Part shown: piece by piece, positions 2,967 through 11,686 of the stretch | How positions within the stretch are numbered: position 1 is the first letter of the stretch | Layout of the letters: every line of letters begins with the position of its first letter | NCBI GenBank assembly: GCA_017483765.1 | Contig: JAFUVE010000020.1 | Location: 1-42,346, forward strand | Direction of reading: 5' to 3' | Source: Bacteroidaceae bacterium | GTDB taxonomy: Bacteria; Bacteroidota; Bacteroidia; Bacteroidales; Bacteroidaceae | DNA: 42,346 nt | The notes under the pieces: generated by a model | Databases searched by the model: none | What the model was told of the DNA's origin: nothing | What the model saw: only the letters and a program-made list of their open reading frames with translations | Position numbers and translations under genes: made by a program

Positions 2967-4166
2967 TCATCGGCACCACCTTTTCAGTTGTTGCTTTCTG
3001 ATGTCTATCATGAGGCTGTTGACGAAGTCAGTGTCAATCTTGTCGCGGATGGTGGAGTGCTCCATCGCGTCGTTCATCGTGGCCGTCTCTTGTTCCAACA
3101 TTGCTACAATTTCCTCGTATTCATATTTGTGGTTGCGTATGTCGAGCAGGAACTGGCGGTCCCATGTCCGTTCGAGCTGCATGCCCTGTCCTTCTGCAAT
3201 CTCACGAGCCATATGGATCATGCGGAAGCAGTGCATCATGTTTTTTGAGTCATAATTCTTCTGTAGGTTCGACTCATAGCGTTTTGGGTTGCGTTCGCGA
3301 AGCCATGTCTGGTAGTCGGCATACATACGGCAATGCAGTGAGTACCCGCTTTGGTTGTAGGATATGAAGCAGATGGGGCGTGTGTCTTTGTCGTTGATGG
3401 ACGAGAGCCGCAGTTCGTTGGCGTCGTTGTCGAGGTTGATCACACCTCGGTAACCGATAATGGGCTGCGCCTCCACCGTCTGCTTCGTCTCCTCTTCGTC
3501 GGCTGTATTGAAATAGCTCGATGCAAAGTACAGAAAGTTCTTGTCGGTCTGCCATTTTGGATGGTGGGCTGTATGTGCCCCGAAGTCGTAATATACGCCG
3601 TAGACGTCGTGCATGTTGGGTATATTCACCAGCCCGCAGAATTCTTGATGCAGACTGCGGTTAGCGAGCCAGTCACGTAGCTTCGTGCTGCCTTGTCCTT
3701 TGAATGTATAGATGAAGTCGAATGGTGAGAGGCGTTTCTCAACAGGGTTCACGATTTTTTTGTTCAGACCCCGTGCTTTCTCAATCTGTGATTTTGCATA
3801 ACCGAAGAATGGGTTGAAACACTGCTTACTGATGAACTGGTCGCGTTGGTCAAGGAGGGGCTGCATCAGCTGGTCCACCTTACCGATGATCTTGTCGGCC
3901 GGAATGAACAGGCTTTCCAGCACGGTGGGGTTTGACTTGAGCAGGAGTCTCACCAGCTCGCCAATCTCAAACCATGTGTTGTCGTGTTTGCTGTCACTTA
4001 CCTGTGCTTTGTATCCGTAGCAGCCGAAGAGTTCGTTCTCAGTGCAGGCGTACACCCCGCTTGTGTCGATGTCTGAGTATTCGTTGTTCAGTCCGTAGAG
4101 GTGGCTGCCCCGCACGTATTCATAGAGCAGCCGTCCGTCCTGTCGTATGATGTCGAATGTGGTCAT
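2967..4166 (-). CDS. RlaP-type DNA polymerase beta superfamily nucleotidyltransferase
   Basis: The 399-residue protein opens with the nucleotidyltransferase signature: GS at residues 20-21, YGLN, then SDID with the metal-binding acids D32 and D34. This is the Pol-beta superfamily fold. I place it in the COG3541/RlaP group (PF10127), whose members are predicted to act in RNA end repair or modification; the substrate is unknown. The rest of the chain contains conserved-looking aromatic and basic stretches (FFGYAKSQIEKARGLNKK, FKGQGSTKLRDWL) and no second recognised domain. It stands alone: no RNA ligase or RtcB partner is adjacent, and dnaK downstream has its own promoter. A weak -7-like box lies at 4181-4188. 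Confidence 0.75.
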   Translation of the reverse strand: MTTFDIIRQDGRLLYEYVRGSHLYGLNNEYSDIDTSGVYACTENELFGCYGYKAQVSDSKHDNTWFEIGELVRLLLKSNPTVLESLFIPADKIIGKVDQLMQPLLDQRDQFISKQCFNPFFGYAKSQIEKARGLNKKIVNPVEKRLSPFDFIYTFKGQGSTKLRDWLANRSLHQEFCGLVNIPNMHDVYGVYYDFGAHTAHHPKWQTDKNFLYFASSYFNTADEEETKQTVEAQPIIGYRGVINLDNDANELRLSSINDKDTRPICFISYNQSGYSLHCRMYADYQTWLRERNPKRYESNLQKNYDSKNMMHCFRMIHMAREIAEGQGMQLERTWDRQFLLDIRNHKYEYEEIVAMLEQETATMNDAMEHSTIRDKIDTDFVNSLMIDIRKQQLKRWCR

Positions 4167-4325
4167 AGCTTTTTTGTCTGCAAAGTAATGGGTTGTCTGT
4201 GCAACTATTTTGCGGTGGTGGAAGTATATGGAATTTAGGTGTTGATCAATTCGTTTTCGTTGCTCTCTCGTTTAATTCCCCCTCTTCATTCTTTCTATCA
4301 CTCTACACATTCATTAATCGATGAT

Positions 4326-5107: not shown

Positions 5108-5140
5108 TTTGTCGGTTTCAGAATTTTTGTTTAAATTTGC
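5108..5140 (+). promoter_or_regulatory. strong promoter of the cysteine-repeat precursor gene
   Basis: TTTG (5108-5111) and TAAATTTGC (5132-5140) are separated by exactly 20 bp, a full match to the Bacteroidetes consensus TTTG-N19-21-TAnnTTTG. Transcription would start near 5146, almost on top of the first ATG (5150). This makes the second ATG at 5165 the likelier translation start. Confidence 0.75.
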
Positions 5141-5164
5141 GGTGTAATCATGATTGACAAGACT

Positions 5165-5830
5165 ATGAAAGATCAAAACGGAGAAAACAAACAGTCAAGA
5201 CGTGAGTTCTTGAAGAAAATAATCAGCAGCTCCTTTGTCATTTCGGCCGGCCTTTTTTTCGGGTCGAAAGCCTCCATCGCCAATGCCATGGGCATCGGCG
5301 GGGGCATCTGCAGCAGCTCGTATGAGTGTGCCGGCGGCGGTGGCACGTGCGGCAGCTCCTATTCCTGCGGTGGCCAGGGCAGTGGCGGTCGCGGTAAATG
5401 CGGCAGCTCGTACGAGTGTACGGGCGGCGGCGGCTCCTGCGGCAGCTCTTATTCCTGCTCGGGCCAGGGCAGCGGCGGCGACGGCAAGTGCGGCAGCTCA
5501 TATGGATGTACGGGCGGTGGCGGCAAGTGCGGCAGCTCTTATTCCTGTACGGGCCAAGGCAGCGGTGGCCGTGGCAAATGTGGCAGCTCGTACGAATGTA
5601 CGGGTGGTGGCGGTTCCTGTGGCAGCTCTTATTCTTGTGGAGGCCAGGGCAGTGGCGGCCGTGGCAAATGCGGCAGCTCGTATGAATGTGCTGGTGGCGG
5701 TGGCTCCTGTGGCAGCTCCTATTCCTGTGGCGGACAGGGCAGTGGGGGCAAGGGCAAATGCAGCAGCTCGTATGACTGTGCCGGTGGCGGCGGCAAATGC
5801 GGGTCTTCTTATAGTTGTGCAGGACAATAA
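5165..5830 (+). CDS. Tat-like leader plus CxSSYxC-repeat protein, candidate RiPP precursor
   Basis: From the ATG at 5165 the product is 221 residues; an upstream in-frame ATG at 5150 is the alternative. Residues 11-18 (SRREFLKK) form a twin-arginine motif followed by a hydrophobic stretch and an AxA-type cleavage site after residue 41. The mature part (residues 49-221) is five complete 30-residue repeats plus a 23-residue partial one. Each repeat has CGSSYEC, a short Gly run, CGSSYSC and a GQGSGGxGK linker. In all there are 12 CxSSYxC motifs and 24 cysteines, evenly spaced, with almost nothing but Gly, Ser, Tyr, Gln, Lys and Arg between. The next gene, 11 bp downstream, is a radical SAM/SPASM enzyme, so the repeats are probably modified post-translationally. 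I know no named family with this exact motif; a structural cysteine-rich surface protein is the alternative. Confidence 0.85.
   Translation: MKDQNGENKQSRREFLKKIISSSFVISAGLFFGSKASIANAMGIGGGICSSSYECAGGGGTCGSSYSCGGQGSGGRGKCGSSYECTGGGGSCGSSYSCSGQGSGGDGKCGSSYGCTGGGGKCGSSYSCTGQGSGGRGKCGSSYECTGGGGSCGSSYSCGGQGSGGRGKCGSSYECAGGGGSCGSSYSCGGQGSGGKGKCSSSYDCAGGGGKCGSSYSCAGQ
5309..5827 (+). repeat. 90-bp tandem coding repeat (5 full copies plus partial)
   Basis: The cysteine-repeat region has a 90-bp period that itself consists of two related halves (CxSSYEC-type and CGSSYSC-type). Copies differ mainly at synonymous positions (Tyr TAT/TAC, Glu GAG/GAA, Cys TGC/TGT). They also differ at two tolerated residues, the one before each Gly run and the one after GSGG. 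The region is markedly more G/C-rich than its flanks. Confidence 0.9.
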
Positions 5831-5841
5831 GCCACGCGGAC

Positions 5842-7182
5842 ATGGAAGAGAATCTACATGAGACGGACTTGGACTTGAGACAATCCCGCCTCAAATTGCC
5901 CGGCAACATCACGACCATCGAACGGGACGGGAAAATCCTTTTTTTCAATCCCGACATACCTGCATGGATGGTGACGAACGCCAACGGCGCGCTCCTTTTG
6001 TCGCTTTGCAACGGCGAGAACACCGTTGACGACATATTGGACGCCTTGTCGGACATCCAGACTGCAGAACAGCAGCAACAGACGCTGCGATTTTTCAAGG
6101 AGGCAGTCGGCAGCGGTATTTTCAGCGTCCCTTTGCGCGGGGAATGCCCGGTCGCAGAGGAGCGCCAGCCGTTGAGTTCCGTGCAGCTGAGCATCAGCAG
6201 CAGGTGTAATCTCAACTGTAAATATTGCTATGCCACCGACCGTCGTGAGAACCATCATCCTAAGATGACGTTTGACGACTACAAGCGTGTGGTGGACGAC
6301 ATCCTGGAATATGCTCCCGGAACGGAGTTCTCTATCACGGGCGGCGAACCCCTTCTGAATCCCGACGCCTGCGCCATCGCAGCCTATATCCGCTCGAAAA
6401 ATTCAGGCGTGGACCTGCTCACCAACGCCACGCTGCTCAACGAACAGAACATCAAGAGGATTGCTGAGGTGTTCGACAAGGTGACGGTCAGTCTCGATGG
6501 GAGCACCGAAGAGAAGCACGACCGCTTCCGCGGGCGCGGGGCGTATGCCAGGACCATGCATGCGCTGGAGCTGCTGGAACAGCATGGCGTCCCTTATTTC
6601 CTGTCCATGACCGTGAACCGCCTCAATATCGACGACGTGGAGGCCATGGCTGCCATCTATGGCGACAAACTTGGGTTTGCTCCCCTCTTTCCTGCTGGAA
6701 ACGCGAAGAAAGGGACGGAAGACATCTCCATCACCGGGCTCGACTATTTCAATGCCCTGAAACGGACTGCAGGCGTAAAGCCGCTCAGCTACTGCGAGTC
6801 CACGCTCGACGCGGCCGTCAGCCAGCGGCGGTGCAAGTGCGCGGTAGGCGGTGCGGAGATCAGCATCTCCGAGACGGGGGACGTCTATCCCTGTCAGCTG
6901 CTGCATTATCCGCAGTTTCTCATGGGAAACATCCATGAAGGCAAGGTGTCGGACTTCCATCGTCATTCCGCGGTGTGCCGTCAGTGTGCCAAGATGGTGG
7001 TGGACAACATCGAGGGTTGCCTCTCGTGTTTCCTCCGTTATGTCTGCGGTGGCGCTTGCCGTGCCAGGGCTTTCCATGAGTGCGGCGACATCATGACGAG
7101 CGGCCGGTTCTGCGAGTATGAGAAAGCCGCTTTCATCGACGGAATCTTCGAGATTTATTCATCCAACAGCTTGTCGGTTTGA
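5842..7182 (+). CDS. radical SAM/SPASM peptide maturase with PqqD-like domain
   Basis: Using the ATG at 5842, the protein has 446 residues; a TTG at 5815 that would overlap the precursor is the alternative start. Residues about 15-95 resemble a PqqD/RRE peptide-binding domain (WMVTNANGALLLSLCNGENT). The radical SAM cluster motif CNLNCKYC gives C122, C126 and C129 as the 4Fe-4S ligands, followed by the GGEPLL motif. The C-terminal third is a SPASM domain with many cysteines (CKCAVGG, GDVYPC, CRQC, CLSC, CGGAC and a final FCEY), expected to hold two auxiliary iron-sulphur clusters. Such enzymes install thioether, carbon-carbon or epimerised centres in ribosomal peptides. The cysteine-repeat gene immediately upstream is the obvious substrate. 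The exact chemistry cannot be read from sequence. Confidence 0.9.
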   Translation: MEENLHETDLDLRQSRLKLPGNITTIERDGKILFFNPDIPAWMVTNANGALLLSLCNGENTVDDILDALSDIQTAEQQQQTLRFFKEAVGSGIFSVPLRGECPVAEERQPLSSVQLSISSRCNLNCKYCYATDRRENHHPKMTFDDYKRVVDDILEYAPGTEFSITGGEPLLNPDACAIAAYIRSKNSGVDLLTNATLLNEQNIKRIAEVFDKVTVSLDGSTEEKHDRFRGRGAYARTMHALELLEQHGVPYFLSMTVNRLNIDDVEAMAAIYGDKLGFAPLFPAGNAKKGTEDISITGLDYFNALKRTAGVKPLSYCESTLDAAVSQRRCKCAVGGAEISISETGDVYPCQLLHYPQFLMGNIHEGKVSDFHRHSAVCRQCAKMVVDNIEGCLSCFLRYVCGGACRARAFHECGDIMTSGRFCEYEKAAFIDGIFEIYSSNSLSV

Positions 7183-7939: not shown

Positions 7940-8344
7940 ATGAAAAAAGTATTGACTGTTGGCGTTTACGACCTCTTGCACATCGGCCATGTAGAGCTTT
8001 TCCGCAAGGCTCGTCGTCAGGGTGACTACCTTATTGTGGCAGTACAGGACTCAGACGTTGTACTGGCTTTCAAGCCCGATGCCAAGCTGGTGTATAGCAC
8101 GGAGGAGCGTTGCTATATGGTACGTGCCATACGTTATGTGGATGAGGTCGTTGTCTACCAGAATGTGAAGGATATCGTCAAGACTGTGGATTTTGATGTG
8201 TTCGTGAAAGGCCCAGACCAAGGCCATGCCGGATTCCAGGAGGCTGTCCGGTGGTGTGAGGAACATGGCAAGCAGGTGGTGACGCTCCCCAGGACAGATG
8301 GCATCTCCACTTCTGAGCTGAAGGAGCTTATCCGTAATATGTGA
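7940..8344 (+). CDS. TagD/GCT-like cytidylyltransferase family protein
   Basis: The 134-residue protein has the nucleotidyltransferase alpha/beta phosphodiesterase signature near its start, VGVYDLLHIGHVELFRKA, with the HxGH motif. It also has the closing ISTSELKELI motif (ISTT/S-type), as in glycerol-3-phosphate cytidylyltransferase (TagD) and ADP-heptose or ethanolamine-phosphate relatives. It should activate a phosphorylated small alcohol or sugar with CTP (or ATP) in the cytosol. The length is standard for the single-domain family. The next gene is a LicD-type phosphotransferase 50 bp downstream. Together they suggest synthesis and transfer of a CDP-activated group to a surface glycan or lipid. 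The substrate is not determinable here. Confidence 0.85.
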   Translation: MKKVLTVGVYDLLHIGHVELFRKARRQGDYLIVAVQDSDVVLAFKPDAKLVYSTEERCYMVRAIRYVDEVVVYQNVKDIVKTVDFDVFVKGPDQGHAGFQEAVRWCEEHGKQVVTLPRTDGISTSELKELIRNM

Positions 8345-8394
8345 TTTTGATTGTATAATTCTCAAATCAATAAAGGCTATCGTTTAAATCAATT

Positions 8395-9219
8395 ATGGAT
8401 TATGATATACGTCCTCTTCAGCTTCATCTGCAGAAGAACCTGGAAGAGGTGGACAAGGCTTTCAATGCTCACGGACTGAGATATTTCATGGTGTCGGGCA
8501 CGATGCTGGGCGCCGTGCGTCATAAGGGATTCATCCCTTGGGACGACGACGTGGACATTGCGATGCCCCGTGCTGACTATGAGCGTCTCATCAAGGAATG
8601 GCGTGAGGTCCTTCCTGAATTTCTGGAGTTCGTCAGTCCGGAGCAGGACGAGAACTATCCGCTCCCTTACGGCAAGATACAGGACAACCGCACCATCGTG
8701 GTGGAGAAAACCTACCGCAAGTATATCGGCGGTGTCTATCTCGATGTCTTTCCACTCGACGGAGTTCCCGACAGTGCGCTGGGACGTTGGTGGCACTTCA
8801 CGAAATACCTGTTTTACTATAAAATGCTCTATTACAGCTTCCGCGACCCGTTCAAGCATGGACATGGCGTGAACAGCTGGGTGCCGCGGCTCGTGCAGAA
8901 ACTGACCACGCGTCGTGGGCTCCACAAGCGTATCCGCCGGATTATGATGCGGCGCGACTACGATGCCTCACCATTGATTTCCGAACATTACAACCGGCAG
9001 CGGCGTTATTTCCCAAAGGAGGTGTTTGGCAAGCCTACGCCATTGGAATACGAAGGGGCTATGCTGATGGGTGTGGAGAAGCCACATGAGTATCTGCTCG
9101 AGGAGTATGGCGACTACATGACGCTGCCACCAGAGGACAAGCGACACCAGCATCATTTCCATTTTCTCGACCTCAACAGGTCATATAAGGATGTGGATGA
9201 GAAGGAGTTTTATAAGTGA
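8395..9219 (+). CDS. LicD family phosphotransferase
   Basis: The 274-residue protein carries the LicD signature: SGTMLGAVRHKGFIPWDDD followed by VDIAMPRADYERL, with the DDDxD metal site. Further family motifs are YGKIQDNRT and YLDVFPLDGVP. LicD proteins are Pol-beta-fold enzymes that move phosphocholine or similar phospho-alcohols from a CDP carrier onto cell-surface glycans. The adjacent cytidylyltransferase would supply the donor. No choline kinase or transporter is nearby, so the transferred group may differ. The stop codon is immediately followed by, and overlaps by one base, a long bidirectional terminator. Confidence 0.9.
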   Translation: MDYDIRPLQLHLQKNLEEVDKAFNAHGLRYFMVSGTMLGAVRHKGFIPWDDDVDIAMPRADYERLIKEWREVLPEFLEFVSPEQDENYPLPYGKIQDNRTIVVEKTYRKYIGGVYLDVFPLDGVPDSALGRWWHFTKYLFYYKMLYYSFRDPFKHGHGVNSWVPRLVQKLTTRRGLHKRIRRIMMRRDYDASPLISEHYNRQRRYFPKEVFGKPTPLEYEGAMLMGVEKPHEYLLEEYGDYMTLPPEDKRHQHHFHFLDLNRSYKDVDEKEFYK

Positions 9220-9289: not shown

Positions 9290-11608
9290 CTATTCGTTGG
9301 TCTCCACCGGCACCAGCTTGATGTAGAACAGGTTGACGACCTTGTCCTTCTTCAGCTCGTAGTCGCCGGCCTCGAGCGTCTGGGTGTAGGTGTTGCCCGA
9401 GCCATTGATCTTGTTTCCGTTGATGAGTATACTTGCCGTCTCGCTCGGACCGAAGTAGAGCGTCATCACGTAGGCTGCTGGTAAGGAGAACTTCAGGGAT
9501 GTGGAGGACTCCATCTTCAGGCAAGTGGAGTAAGCCACTCCGTCCACGGTGACCGTACCCTTGCTGTCCGAGCCTTTTCCGCTGACAGTGAAGAAACTGC
9601 TTGATGGCGTTCCGCTCTTGTTGAACGAGCAGGTGATGGTGCCTTCAGGCACCTCCGGTGTCGGATTGTCAGGGTTGTCAGGATTGTCCGGGTTTTCGGG
9701 GTTTTCCGGATTATCCGGTGTTTCGCCGGCCTCTTCTCCGAAGACACCAACGAGGGCAGACTTGTAACCGTCGATCTTGGCTTCCAGTTCTTTGTCGACC
9801 TCTGAGTCCAGTTCGTCGTTGCCTACGTTGTCGGCAAAGGTGTGCTGGATGTCTCCGTGGTTGAGTCGTCCGGCGCCGTACCATCCTTTCACAATCTCAG
9901 GCACGTCCTCAGCGGCGTCGGGAGTATAAGTGTACATACGGCTGGGGTCAGTGTCAAAGTTGTTGTAGCTGGTTCCGCCCTGCAGCGTCACTTCCTTCTC
10001 CGGCACTTTGTCCTCTCGTGTAGCGGTCTCGTAGGCGTCATAGCCAAGTGTGGGGTGGGGGTTGTTCTGTGTGTAGTAGCGGAAGTTTGTGCATTCTGAG
10101 TCGATGAAGTTTCCGAATGCCTTGATCATGCCGCCATTCTCACCGGAGAACGTACCTTCGCCCGTGGCGTCCGTGCCTTGTCGTGAGCTCAGGATGGGCT
10201 TCTTGGTCTTGAGGAAGTAGTTGTTCTCCACGAACACGCTCGAACCGCTGGTTGCTCCCACACCATATTTTGCGTTGTTGTCGAAGAAGTTGTTCCACAC
10301 GTGCACGCTCATTGTCCTTACGCGCGGATGGCGAGAGTCTGCGTGGTCGAACCAGTTGTGGTGGTAGCTGATGTAGTTGGGTCCGCTTTCGCTCTTCATG
10401 CCGAACATGTTTGACTTGCCAGTGTCCCATTCGTGGCAGTAGCTCATCGTCACGTATTTCGAGTCGCTCTTCACGTCGATGGCTCCGTCGCCTTTGACGT
10501 GGTCGCCGCTTCCTGCTTTTCCGTAGAACACGTCGATGTTATGTATCCAGATGTTGGAGTTGTCGGTGTCGAGCGAGAGTCCGTCGTCCATGCAGCGGAT
10601 GATGGCGAAATTACGGAATTCCACGCTCTTGCAGTTCCTCAGCAGGAATCCGAACCCTTTCACTGTGGCGTCGTCTCCGATTCCCTCAATGGTGATGTTC
10701 ATCTCCGTGTCAGCCTTGTTGCCCTTCACCTGTAGTCCTTCCTCCTTGCTTCCGAGTGAGTCGAGGTCGGCAAGGTTCAACATGCCGATGATTCGGATGG
10801 CGATTGGATATGTAGGCTTGCCCTTTTCGCATGCCGTCAGAATATGTTGTATTCCTTTGGCCTTTATGGTGGTGGTCTTGCTGTCCTTGACGGTCTCGAT
10901 GGTCTCTTCCATTGTCTTTGCTGTTTTGCTGGTCAGGTAGATGACCTTCGCTCCGCTCTTGAGCGTTCCGTCGTCGTTGTAGGCTCCTACGCCGCTGTAG
11001 TTGAAGTGTGCGAATCCACTGCGGTCGTAGTTCTTCACGCTCATCACTTCTGACACTCCAGCCGTGGATTCGGGCATTTCTGTCCCTTCTGAGTCCACTG
11101 CCACCACCTTGACGGTGTAGTCGTCTGCTGCTTTCAGTCCTGGTATGTCTGCCCGTCCGTACGTGCCGTAGTTGCGTACGAGCTGTCCGTCCACGCGGGT
11201 GTAGTCGCTGTACTGTCCGCCCTTGATGTAGGCGTTGTAGCTTTTTGCGCCCTCAATCAGGCTGAATTTCACATATGCATATTCCTGCCATCCCTTGGCT
11301 TCCGTGATTTCTATCTTTCCTTCCGAAGGCTGCGGGGTAGGAGTGTCAGGCCGGTTGGGCGCTCCGCTGGCAATCACGTTGATGATGGCCACGATGTCGG
11401 ATATGTCGATGTTCCCGTCATGGTTGACGTCGCCATTGGATTCCGGCTTCGAAGCGATGATATTGATGACAGCCACGATGTCGGAGATGTCCACCGTCTT
11501 GTCGCCGTTCACGTCGGCATCCTCATAATAAATGGTCTTGCTGTCTTCGGCAAAGGCACTGCCAATGGTCATCAGCATCACCATTATGGATAAAAATATT
11601 CTTTTCAT
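9290..11608 (-). CDS. secreted pectate lyase (PL1-like) with N-terminal dockerin-like module
   Basis: The start was set at 11606-11608 because the next residues form a signal peptide (MKRIFLSIMVMLMTIGSAFA); the longer frame has no leader logic. Residues 32-51 and 60-80 are two calcium-binding dockerin-type repeats (DVNGDKTVDISD and DVNHDGNIDISD). A fibronectin/linker-like segment follows at about 90-180, then a right-handed beta-helix PL1 lyase domain at about 190-560 with DDGLSLDTDNSNIWIHNI, WDTGKSN and RHPRVR motifs. The Asp pair and Arg are the expected Ca2+-dependent beta-elimination residues. An acidic Pro-Asn-Asp linker (NPENPDNPDNP) leads to a C-terminal beta-rich domain of about 120 residues that may bind glycan. 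The enzyme should cleave polygalacturonate. No SusC/SusD pair is next to it. DUF362 lies upstream on the same strand. Confidence 0.88.
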   Translation of the reverse strand: MKRIFLSIMVMLMTIGSAFAEDSKTIYYEDADVNGDKTVDISDIVAVINIIASKPESNGDVNHDGNIDISDIVAIINVIASGAPNRPDTPTPQPSEGKIEITEAKGWQEYAYVKFSLIEGAKSYNAYIKGGQYSDYTRVDGQLVRNYGTYGRADIPGLKAADDYTVKVVAVDSEGTEMPESTAGVSEVMSVKNYDRSGFAHFNYSGVGAYNDDGTLKSGAKVIYLTSKTAKTMEETIETVKDSKTTTIKAKGIQHILTACEKGKPTYPIAIRIIGMLNLADLDSLGSKEEGLQVKGNKADTEMNITIEGIGDDATVKGFGFLLRNCKSVEFRNFAIIRCMDDGLSLDTDNSNIWIHNIDVFYGKAGSGDHVKGDGAIDVKSDSKYVTMSYCHEWDTGKSNMFGMKSESGPNYISYHHNWFDHADSRHPRVRTMSVHVWNNFFDNNAKYGVGATSGSSVFVENNYFLKTKKPILSSRQGTDATGEGTFSGENGGMIKAFGNFIDSECTNFRYYTQNNPHPTLGYDAYETATREDKVPEKEVTLQGGTSYNNFDTDPSRMYTYTPDAAEDVPEIVKGWYGAGRLNHGDIQHTFADNVGNDELDSEVDKELEAKIDGYKSALVGVFGEEAGETPDNPENPENPDNPDNPDNPTPEVPEGTITCSFNKSGTPSSSFFTVSGKGSDSKGTVTVDGVAYSTCLKMESSTSLKFSLPAAYVMTLYFGPSETASILINGNKINGSGNTYTQTLEAGDYELKKDKVVNLFYIKLVPVETNE

Positions 11609-11686
11609 TGTCTTTGCTTTTATTTGTGTGGTTCTGATTTTTTTTGTTCCGTATTGAACTAATAGCTGAAAACCGAAGCTAAACAT

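Follow-up and report, generated by a model that had tools for sequence, protein, structure and literature searches.

A candidate two-gene radical SAM RiPP-like system with a Tat-type leader and a long cysteine-repeat core in a Bacteroidaceae bacterium

Background

The described systems closest to the locus reported here belong to the ribosomally synthesized and post-translationally modified peptides (RiPPs). The locus is a pair of adjacent genes in a 42,346-nucleotide contig of a Bacteroidaceae bacterium (JAFUVE010000020.1, positions 1 to 42,346 of the forward strand, assembly GCA_017483765.1), to which, at its full length, we refer as the window. One gene encodes a precursor-like protein with an apparent leader of the twin-arginine translocation (Tat) type and a long array of cysteine motifs; the other encodes a radical S-adenosylmethionine (SAM) enzyme with a SPASM domain, the putative maturase.

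Streptosactin (the GGG system, GggA/GggB) offers a parallel in spacing. It too is the product of a radical SAM/SPASM enzyme, and it contains two consecutive, unnested four-residue rings with CX5C spacing and a serine midway (PMC8172795, PMC13361665), the rings joining Cys25 to Ser28 and Cys31 to Gly34 (PMC8172795, of which one passage prints Cys15 for Cys25). The passages cited describe a 14-mer product, a dedicated leader protease and quorum-sensing regulators, whereas the window has 12 motifs and a Tat-type leader; our comparison concerns the published ring spacing only. Known sactipeptide precursors have leaders of 8-29 residues, cores of 26-44 residues and generally 1-4 links (PMC8326336). 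In TvgA/TvgB a single radical SAM enzyme modifies a short repeat present in several copies, as is proposed for the window's pair, but the system differs in its TVGG repeats, its cyclopropylglycine and its five-gene cluster, which includes a peptidase and transporters (PMC9062424).

The bufferins, RiPPs of the multinuclear non-heme iron-dependent oxidative enzyme (MNIO) type, are similar in another respect: their precursor carries cysteine motifs, a secretion signal takes the place of the leader, and export follows a general pathway (PMC12452194). They are served by an MNIO enzyme, a partner protein and the Sec pathway, whereas the window pairs a lone radical SAM enzyme with a Tat-type signal; no MNIO enzyme with a partner protein was found among the seven window proteins scanned around the pair, a scan made at this locus and not at the others. 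According to the same source, signal peptides are rare among bacterial RiPPs, and use of Sec has been shown experimentally for bufferins only. In a phage-display study of lanthipeptides, ring-bearing peptides were argued to pass Sec poorly; its authors considered Tat, and their preliminary attempts were unsuccessful (PMC5686179).

Our search of the open PMC literature, which did not extend to subscription papers or preprints, found no report of the motif strings or of a natural Tat-exported RiPP with a radical SAM enzyme. The terms 'Tat' and 'signal peptide' are absent from the main text of a survey of Bacteroidales RiPP clusters (PMC10352776), and the RRE-Finder paper (PMC7470986) does not mention the terms looked for. 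What we describe looks like a RiPP-like pair built on a radical SAM enzyme and apparently unreported; a Tat-type leader, a long repeat core and a clade of its own distinguish it.

Results and discussion

A conserved pair of genes

We observed the pair at seven loci: in the window, in four Prevotella-like relatives and, in another class, in two bacteria (G567, G611) that are most likely green sulfur bacteria, so called because the chlorosome protein family PF02043 is present in both genomes and in 0 of 14 control genomes. These loci represent five different neighbourhoods, since the window and one relative (L006) share flanks and the two green sulfur loci share theirs. We favour, with a probability of about 0.58, the reading that the pair is a poly-sactionine-like RiPP system whose precursor is modified in the cytosol by the radical SAM enzyme and then exported by Tat. 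The features of the window on which this reading draws are the following.

5108..5139, + strand: putative promoter, TTTG-N20-TAAATTTG, an exact match to the pattern
5150..5830, + strand: precursor gene, 226 residues, with an alternative start ATG at 5165; homologs at six further loci
5150..5287, + strand: predicted Tat-type leader, residues 1-46, SRREFLKK ... ANA
5309..5827, + strand: core, 12 CX5C motifs on Gly-rich linkers alternating between 6 and 10 residues
5842..7182, + strand: radical SAM/SPASM gene, putative maturase, 446 residues from the ATG at 5842
5842..6165, + strand: N-terminal domain of the maturase, possibly a PqqD-like, leader-binding domain (RiPP recognition element, RRE), with weak matches below cut-off
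6205..6228, + strand: CX3CX2C radical SAM cluster motif, CNLNCKYC, its three cysteines invariant in 7/7 maturases
6838..7113, + strand: SPASM region with seven invariant cysteines (333, 351, 393, 396, 402, 406 and 424)

The maturase ATG lies 11 bp past the precursor stop codon, and the gene pair, its coordinates and this gap are as given in a preliminary description made from the letters of the window. That description also called the precursor gene short, a word that holds in a relative sense only, 226 residues being long for a RiPP precursor. The upstream pattern, which we take to be the Bacteroidota -33/-7 promoter consensus, occurs three times in the window against 0.34 expected, and one of 100 shuffled sequences reached three. 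No Rfam match was found between positions 4300 and 9300, and we discarded a structured RNA near the pair.

Open reading frames of at least 80 residues were compared around six of the loci, L006 being left out for sharing the window's flanks. Common to all six were the pair itself and antisense frames inside it, and nothing else; partial sharing was seen within the two green sulfur loci and in one gene about 3-4 kb from the pair in L007 and L019. The HD-domain, cytidylyltransferase and LicD genes that lie downstream in the window and in L006 were unmatched in the other five loci compared, and we do not count them as parts of the system. Directly upstream of both green sulfur precursors (L035, L036) is a Sel1-repeat gene, which was unmatched at the other loci compared.

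The repeat core

All 24 cysteines of the window precursor lie within 12 CX5C motifs (ten CGSSYxC and two CSSSYxC), whose spacing alternates between 13 and 17 residues; for this protein, the twelve CxSSYxC motifs of the preliminary description are an accurate account. When five 30-residue units were compared, codon positions 1 and 2 agreed at 91.7% but position 3 at only 57.7%. Between the window and L006 there are 37 synonymous and 4 nonsynonymous codon differences in the precursor, and 52 and 26, respectively, in the maturase. Because the third codon position diverges while the first two agree, and because synonymous differences far outnumber nonsynonymous ones in the comparison with L006, the array is coding and is maintained by selection on the protein rather than being a chance repeat. 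A PDB search with the precursor sequence returned no matches.

Across the seven precursors, which contain 4 to 19 copies each, we tabulated 77 motifs, 12 of which come from L006 and are thus near-identical to those of the window. Every cysteine of every precursor falls within CX5C. Position 2 is exclusively Gly or Ser, and position 9, the second residue after the second cysteine, is Gly in 77/77. The positions between are more variable: position 4 is Ser in 67, Ala in 6 and Gly in 4, position 5 is Tyr in 45, Phe in 16, Ile in 12 and Ala in 4, and position 6 is Asp or Glu in 33, Ser in 30 and Gly in 11. Since positions 4 and 5 vary, CxSSYxC, proposed earlier as the defining motif, is a local version only, and what the relatives keep is C-x5-C-x-G alone. 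The precursor of G390, for example, has 19 motifs that include CSSSISC, CSASIDC and CSSSFDC; the core of G567 has six CGSAFxC motifs (CGSAFGC or CGSAFEC), and that of G611 has four copies of CGIGAGC.

The last of these bears on the chemistry. In CGIGAGC, positions 2, 4 and 6 are Gly and position 5 is Ala; Ser, Asp, Glu and aromatic residues are all absent. A side-chain acceptor is therefore not general, and the Ser and Tyr side chains that had been put forward as cross-link sites are unlikely, to judge from these cores, to serve as such throughout the family.

Of all the comparisons, we consider that between G567 and G611 the most telling: their maturases are 87.5% identical and their leaders are identical at 50 of 56 residues, and their cores differ. 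RiPP precursors typically hold the leader constant while the core drifts, and the contrast would be a case of such RiPP-like divergence.

The maturase

The window enzyme passes the Pfam cut-offs for Radical_SAM (PF04055, 8.9e-27) and SPASM (PF13186, 22.8 against 21.5 bits), and ten cysteines, the three of CX3CX2C and the seven of SPASM, are invariant across all seven maturases. The assignment to the radical SAM/SPASM enzymes made in the preliminary description thus holds, while the PqqD-like N-terminus that it named finds weaker backing, all matches there lying below cut-off: PqqD (PF05402) scores 17.1 against 23.4 bits in the window enzyme, weak PqqD matches fall at the same place in the window and green sulfur enzymes (TIGR03859 with E 0.024 in the former; E 0.024 and 0.041), and the top PDB match of the domain is PqqD at E 0.9. 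We regard a PqqD-like, leader-binding function for this domain as suggestive only.

Among NCBIfam models, the window enzyme matches that of the sactipeptide maturase StsB (NF045574) best, at 194.8 bits compared with 128.5 for the next model. The alignment covers the enzyme over almost its full length, N-terminal region included; with the N-terminus removed, StsB still scores 178.9 against 130.2 bits for the next model. All seven maturases match the model at E <= 1e-10. The scores of the window enzyme for SCIFF (89.6 against a cut-off of 425 bits) and PapB (104.5 against 340) are below cut-off; positive controls for SCIFF (L125) and StsB (L123) scored 651.4 and 652.7 bits, respectively. By sequence, the nearest solved relative is 5wgg (3e-28), which we take to be the SCIFF maturase CteB.

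In a tree of 25 rows, built from frames over the matches and without the partial L043, the seven pair-associated maturases group together with support of 99/99. Nearest to this clade is a true StsB together with enzymes from two further genomes, G441 and G659 (88/85); the identity between the window maturase and this StsB is 30%. The StsB gene, from Streptantibioticus cattleyicolor plasmid NC_016113.1, has just upstream of it (L123:3753-3863, + strand) an unannotated 36-residue peptide ending CSCGCGSGGGGGAGS, which is likely to be its precursor. We had considered whether NCBIfam StsB is the streptosactin enzyme and rejected the equation, as the one above-cut-off member that we saw is actinobacterial and adjoins an unlike peptide; we retain streptosactin only for the analogy in spacing.

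The leader and export

In the window leader, SRREFLKK is followed by a hydrophobic stretch and, at residues 44-46, by an ANA site. The twin arginine, already noted in the preliminary description, is kept in 7/7 precursors, as is the sequence RR followed by [EDK]F[LF]. We could read the Tat-type anatomy in six leaders, the AxA-type site being less clear in L007 and L012. The tatC gene is present in all seven host genomes, and in the window's genome tatA adjoins it, which answers the earlier question of whether the genome carries tatA and tatC, genes whose absence, together with proven Sec export, would have spoken against the proposal made in that description; a gene next to these two encodes a product with a recognised Tat signal. 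The mean Kyte-Doolittle hydropathy of the hydrophobic (h-) region is 1.5-2.0 in six leaders, compared with 1.55 in the aldo-keto reductase beside tatC, our sole reference.

Among the six leaders tried with the Tat model TIGR01409 (cut-off 16.7 bits), there was no match in those of the window, L007 and L012, and scores below cut-off were obtained for L004 (11.8) and the green sulfur L025 (15.5) and L027 (14.0); the control, the protein beside tatC, passes with 20.7 bits. On the strength of the motif, its conservation, the Tat genes of the hosts and the lack of any further conserved neighbour of the pair, we infer a Tat-type signal and export of the product by Tat.

Distribution

In a survey of 399 genomes of the family, in which the maturase profile (E <= 1e-60) and the precursor profile (E <= 1e-10) were both applied strictly, four genomes pass the maturase profile, the same four pass the precursor profile, and none of the rest passes either. 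The four are the window's own, G012 (whose contig agrees with L006 in length and position, and whose maturase is 94% identical), G007 and G390, the last from another genus. A further pair is found in Prevotella sp. RGIG8056 from buffalo rumen (L007). A scan of genome contigs with near-exact peptides gave three loci, one of which (L008) is only 21% identical.

A sample of 395 genomes of the phylum was searched at E <= 1e-45 for the maturase and E <= 1e-6 for the precursor. The former profile found five genomes: the window's own, G567 and G611 (about 420 bits each), and G441 and G659 (213-215 bits); the latter found two, the window's own and G567. The CGIGAGC precursor of G611 was found by eye, the profile having missed it at E 1e-6, and precursors lacking an enzyme could therefore be missed too. 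The profile searches, with this limit to the sensitivity of the precursor profile, found no repeat protein of this kind unaccompanied by the radical SAM gene, a circumstance that the preliminary description had named as one that would speak against its proposal. No frame with at least three C[GS]xxxxC motifs was found in the 12-kb stretches scanned in G441 and G659 (L037, L038), whose enzyme is a distant radical SAM/SPASM relative that probably belongs to a different peptide system; in G441 it adjoins what appears, read by eye, to be an ABC exporter.

Elsewhere the maturase occurs in 2 of 86 genomes of the green sulfur family of G567 and G611 and in 1 of 252 in the sample of the order (the window's own), and the precursor occurs in 1 of 37 genomes of the genus of G390. 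The pair is rare and its distribution patchy, which suggests transfer between lineages. We rejected an origin on plasmids or phages: the plasmid search (E <= 1e-30) gave two records and the phage search (E <= 1e-20) five, all distant. A scan of viral contigs gave 250 maturase relatives, and one of the best 80, which were kept, is close (L043, 52%). This locus, on IMG/VR contig 3300007909_000023, filed as viral, is a maturase fragment at the end of the contig, and the precursor site would lie off the end. When frames with at least two CX5CxG motifs were sought in the plasmid, phage and viral-contig loci and in L123-L125, the only match was an unrelated one.

Proposed mechanism and its alternatives

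We hypothesize that the precursor is synthesised with a Tat-type leader, and that the radical SAM/SPASM enzyme would engage it while it is still cytosolic, with the leader and the enzyme's own N-terminal domain as the probable contacts, and work along the repeated CX5C-x-G core. The most likely outcome would be a sactionine thioether between each cysteine sulfur and the alpha-carbon of some small residue close by; C1 may pair with position 4 and C7 with position 9 or 10, for a total of at most 24 small rings. A ring from C7 to position 9 would fit, since the QMP subfamily (suisactin) provides a precedent for rings with a single intervening residue (PMC13361665). The cross-linked protein would then leave by the general Tat translocase of the host and be trimmed at the AxA site, an arrangement that would account for the absence of further conserved genes next to the two; the product may be a chain of redox-stable rings joined by Gly-rich linkers and located in the periplasm or secreted. 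Thioethers to alpha-carbons suit all members and fit better than side-chain links, because the variable inner positions, Gly among them, leave no general side-chain acceptor.

Several observations weigh against this proposal. A precursor of 226 residues and 24 cysteines is far longer than known sactipeptide precursors (PMC8326336). Position 10 is Gly in only 41/77 motifs; the exact streptosactin pattern is thus not kept, and we do not claim the same ring pairs. Tat hidden Markov models give no match for the window leader. The window enzyme misses the StsB cut-off by far (194.8 against 625 bits, where the L123 control is well above it), and for the green sulfur enzyme, with the N-terminus removed, StsB is only narrowly ahead of a heme enzyme family (166.5 against 150.7). 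The proximity of StsB in the tree falls short of firm, given support of 88/85, long branches and odd composition; the G441 and G659 enzymes, which come from another gene setting, fall beside StsB as well; and the sole above-cut-off StsB that we found adjoins an unlike peptide of 36 residues.

The links could be ranthipeptide-like or carbon-carbon links instead, from cysteine to the beta- or gamma-carbons of Ser or Asp/Glu, or as Tyr/Phe cyclophanes. The relationship to 5wgg, the matches to the PapB and SCIFF models and the 33 motifs with an acidic residue at position 6 lend some colour to this idea, but both models score under StsB and under their own cut-offs, position 6 is otherwise often Ser or Gly, position 5 is Ile or Ala in some members, and CGIGAGC offers no suitable residue; in principle the chemistry could differ from member to member, but taken as an account of the family we think such links unlikely. 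It is similarly improbable, in our judgement, that the product is a metal- or redox-buffering periplasmic protein on which the enzyme installs, in place of rings, a metal-binding group. Bufferins, cysteine-rich and with a secretion signal replacing the leader, do chelate copper (PMC12452194), and an antibiotic with dedicated immunity or export genes is not suggested by the surroundings of the pair, where no further gene is kept; against this, no metal-related gene is conserved there either, and the bufferin enzymes and export route are not those of the pair (PMC12452194).

If the leader were instead a signal for Sec, or an ordinary RiPP leader, this would fit the failure of TIGR01409 on three leaders and its low scores on three others, and Sec is the known case among secreted RiPPs (PMC12452194). 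The invariant RR-[EDK]F[LF], however, and an h-region hydropathy close to that of the reductase beside tatC argue for Tat, and we give the alternative a low probability. Least probable in our view is that the radical SAM enzyme acts elsewhere and the cysteine-repeat protein is an unmodified Tat substrate, either disulfide-rich or structural. Tat can export unmodified folded proteins, and modification here is so far deduced from the genes; yet the two genes are kept together across seven loci, five neighbourhoods and two classes, and both were found in the same four among 399 genomes of the family, and disulfides would form after export, with no need of a radical enzyme.

Other genes in the window

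Three further observations concern genes outside the pair. At 9290-11686 (- strand) the window encodes a pectate lyase that carries CBM77 and two stretches of dockerin type I, and a dockerin deserves notice in a Prevotella-like genome. At 7940-9219 (+ strand) a gene of the LicD family follows a cytidylyltransferase-like one, and the two together suggest phosphocholine-type decoration of surface glycans. At 2967-4166 (- strand) lies a nucleotidyltransferase of the RlaP family (RNA repair pathway, polymerase beta family).

Implications

A further-reaching proposal, which we hold tentatively and rate somewhat below even odds, is that the pair represents a RiPP class whose leader is a Tat signal, in which one enzyme installs up to 24 alpha-thioether rings in the cytosol, along a repeated CX5C-x-G protein, and Tat, a pathway open to folded cargo, exports the product and perhaps checks its maturation. 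A Tat-type leader would address two problems raised for secreted RiPPs (PMC12452194, PMC5686179), namely that export must not outpace modification in the cytosol, and that a chain made bulky by its rings must still get through the membrane. To that debate, a naturally occurring Tat route would be a new contribution. An enzyme able to cross-link 4 to 19 motifs with five widely varying inner residues would show a tolerance that makes it interesting to peptide engineers, and the compactness of a two-gene system suits it to testing in E. coli, which has a Tat pathway of its own. For the organisms themselves, if the proposal is true, the rings would provide a disulfide-like bracing that resists reduction, for anaerobes living in sulfidic or reducing niches.

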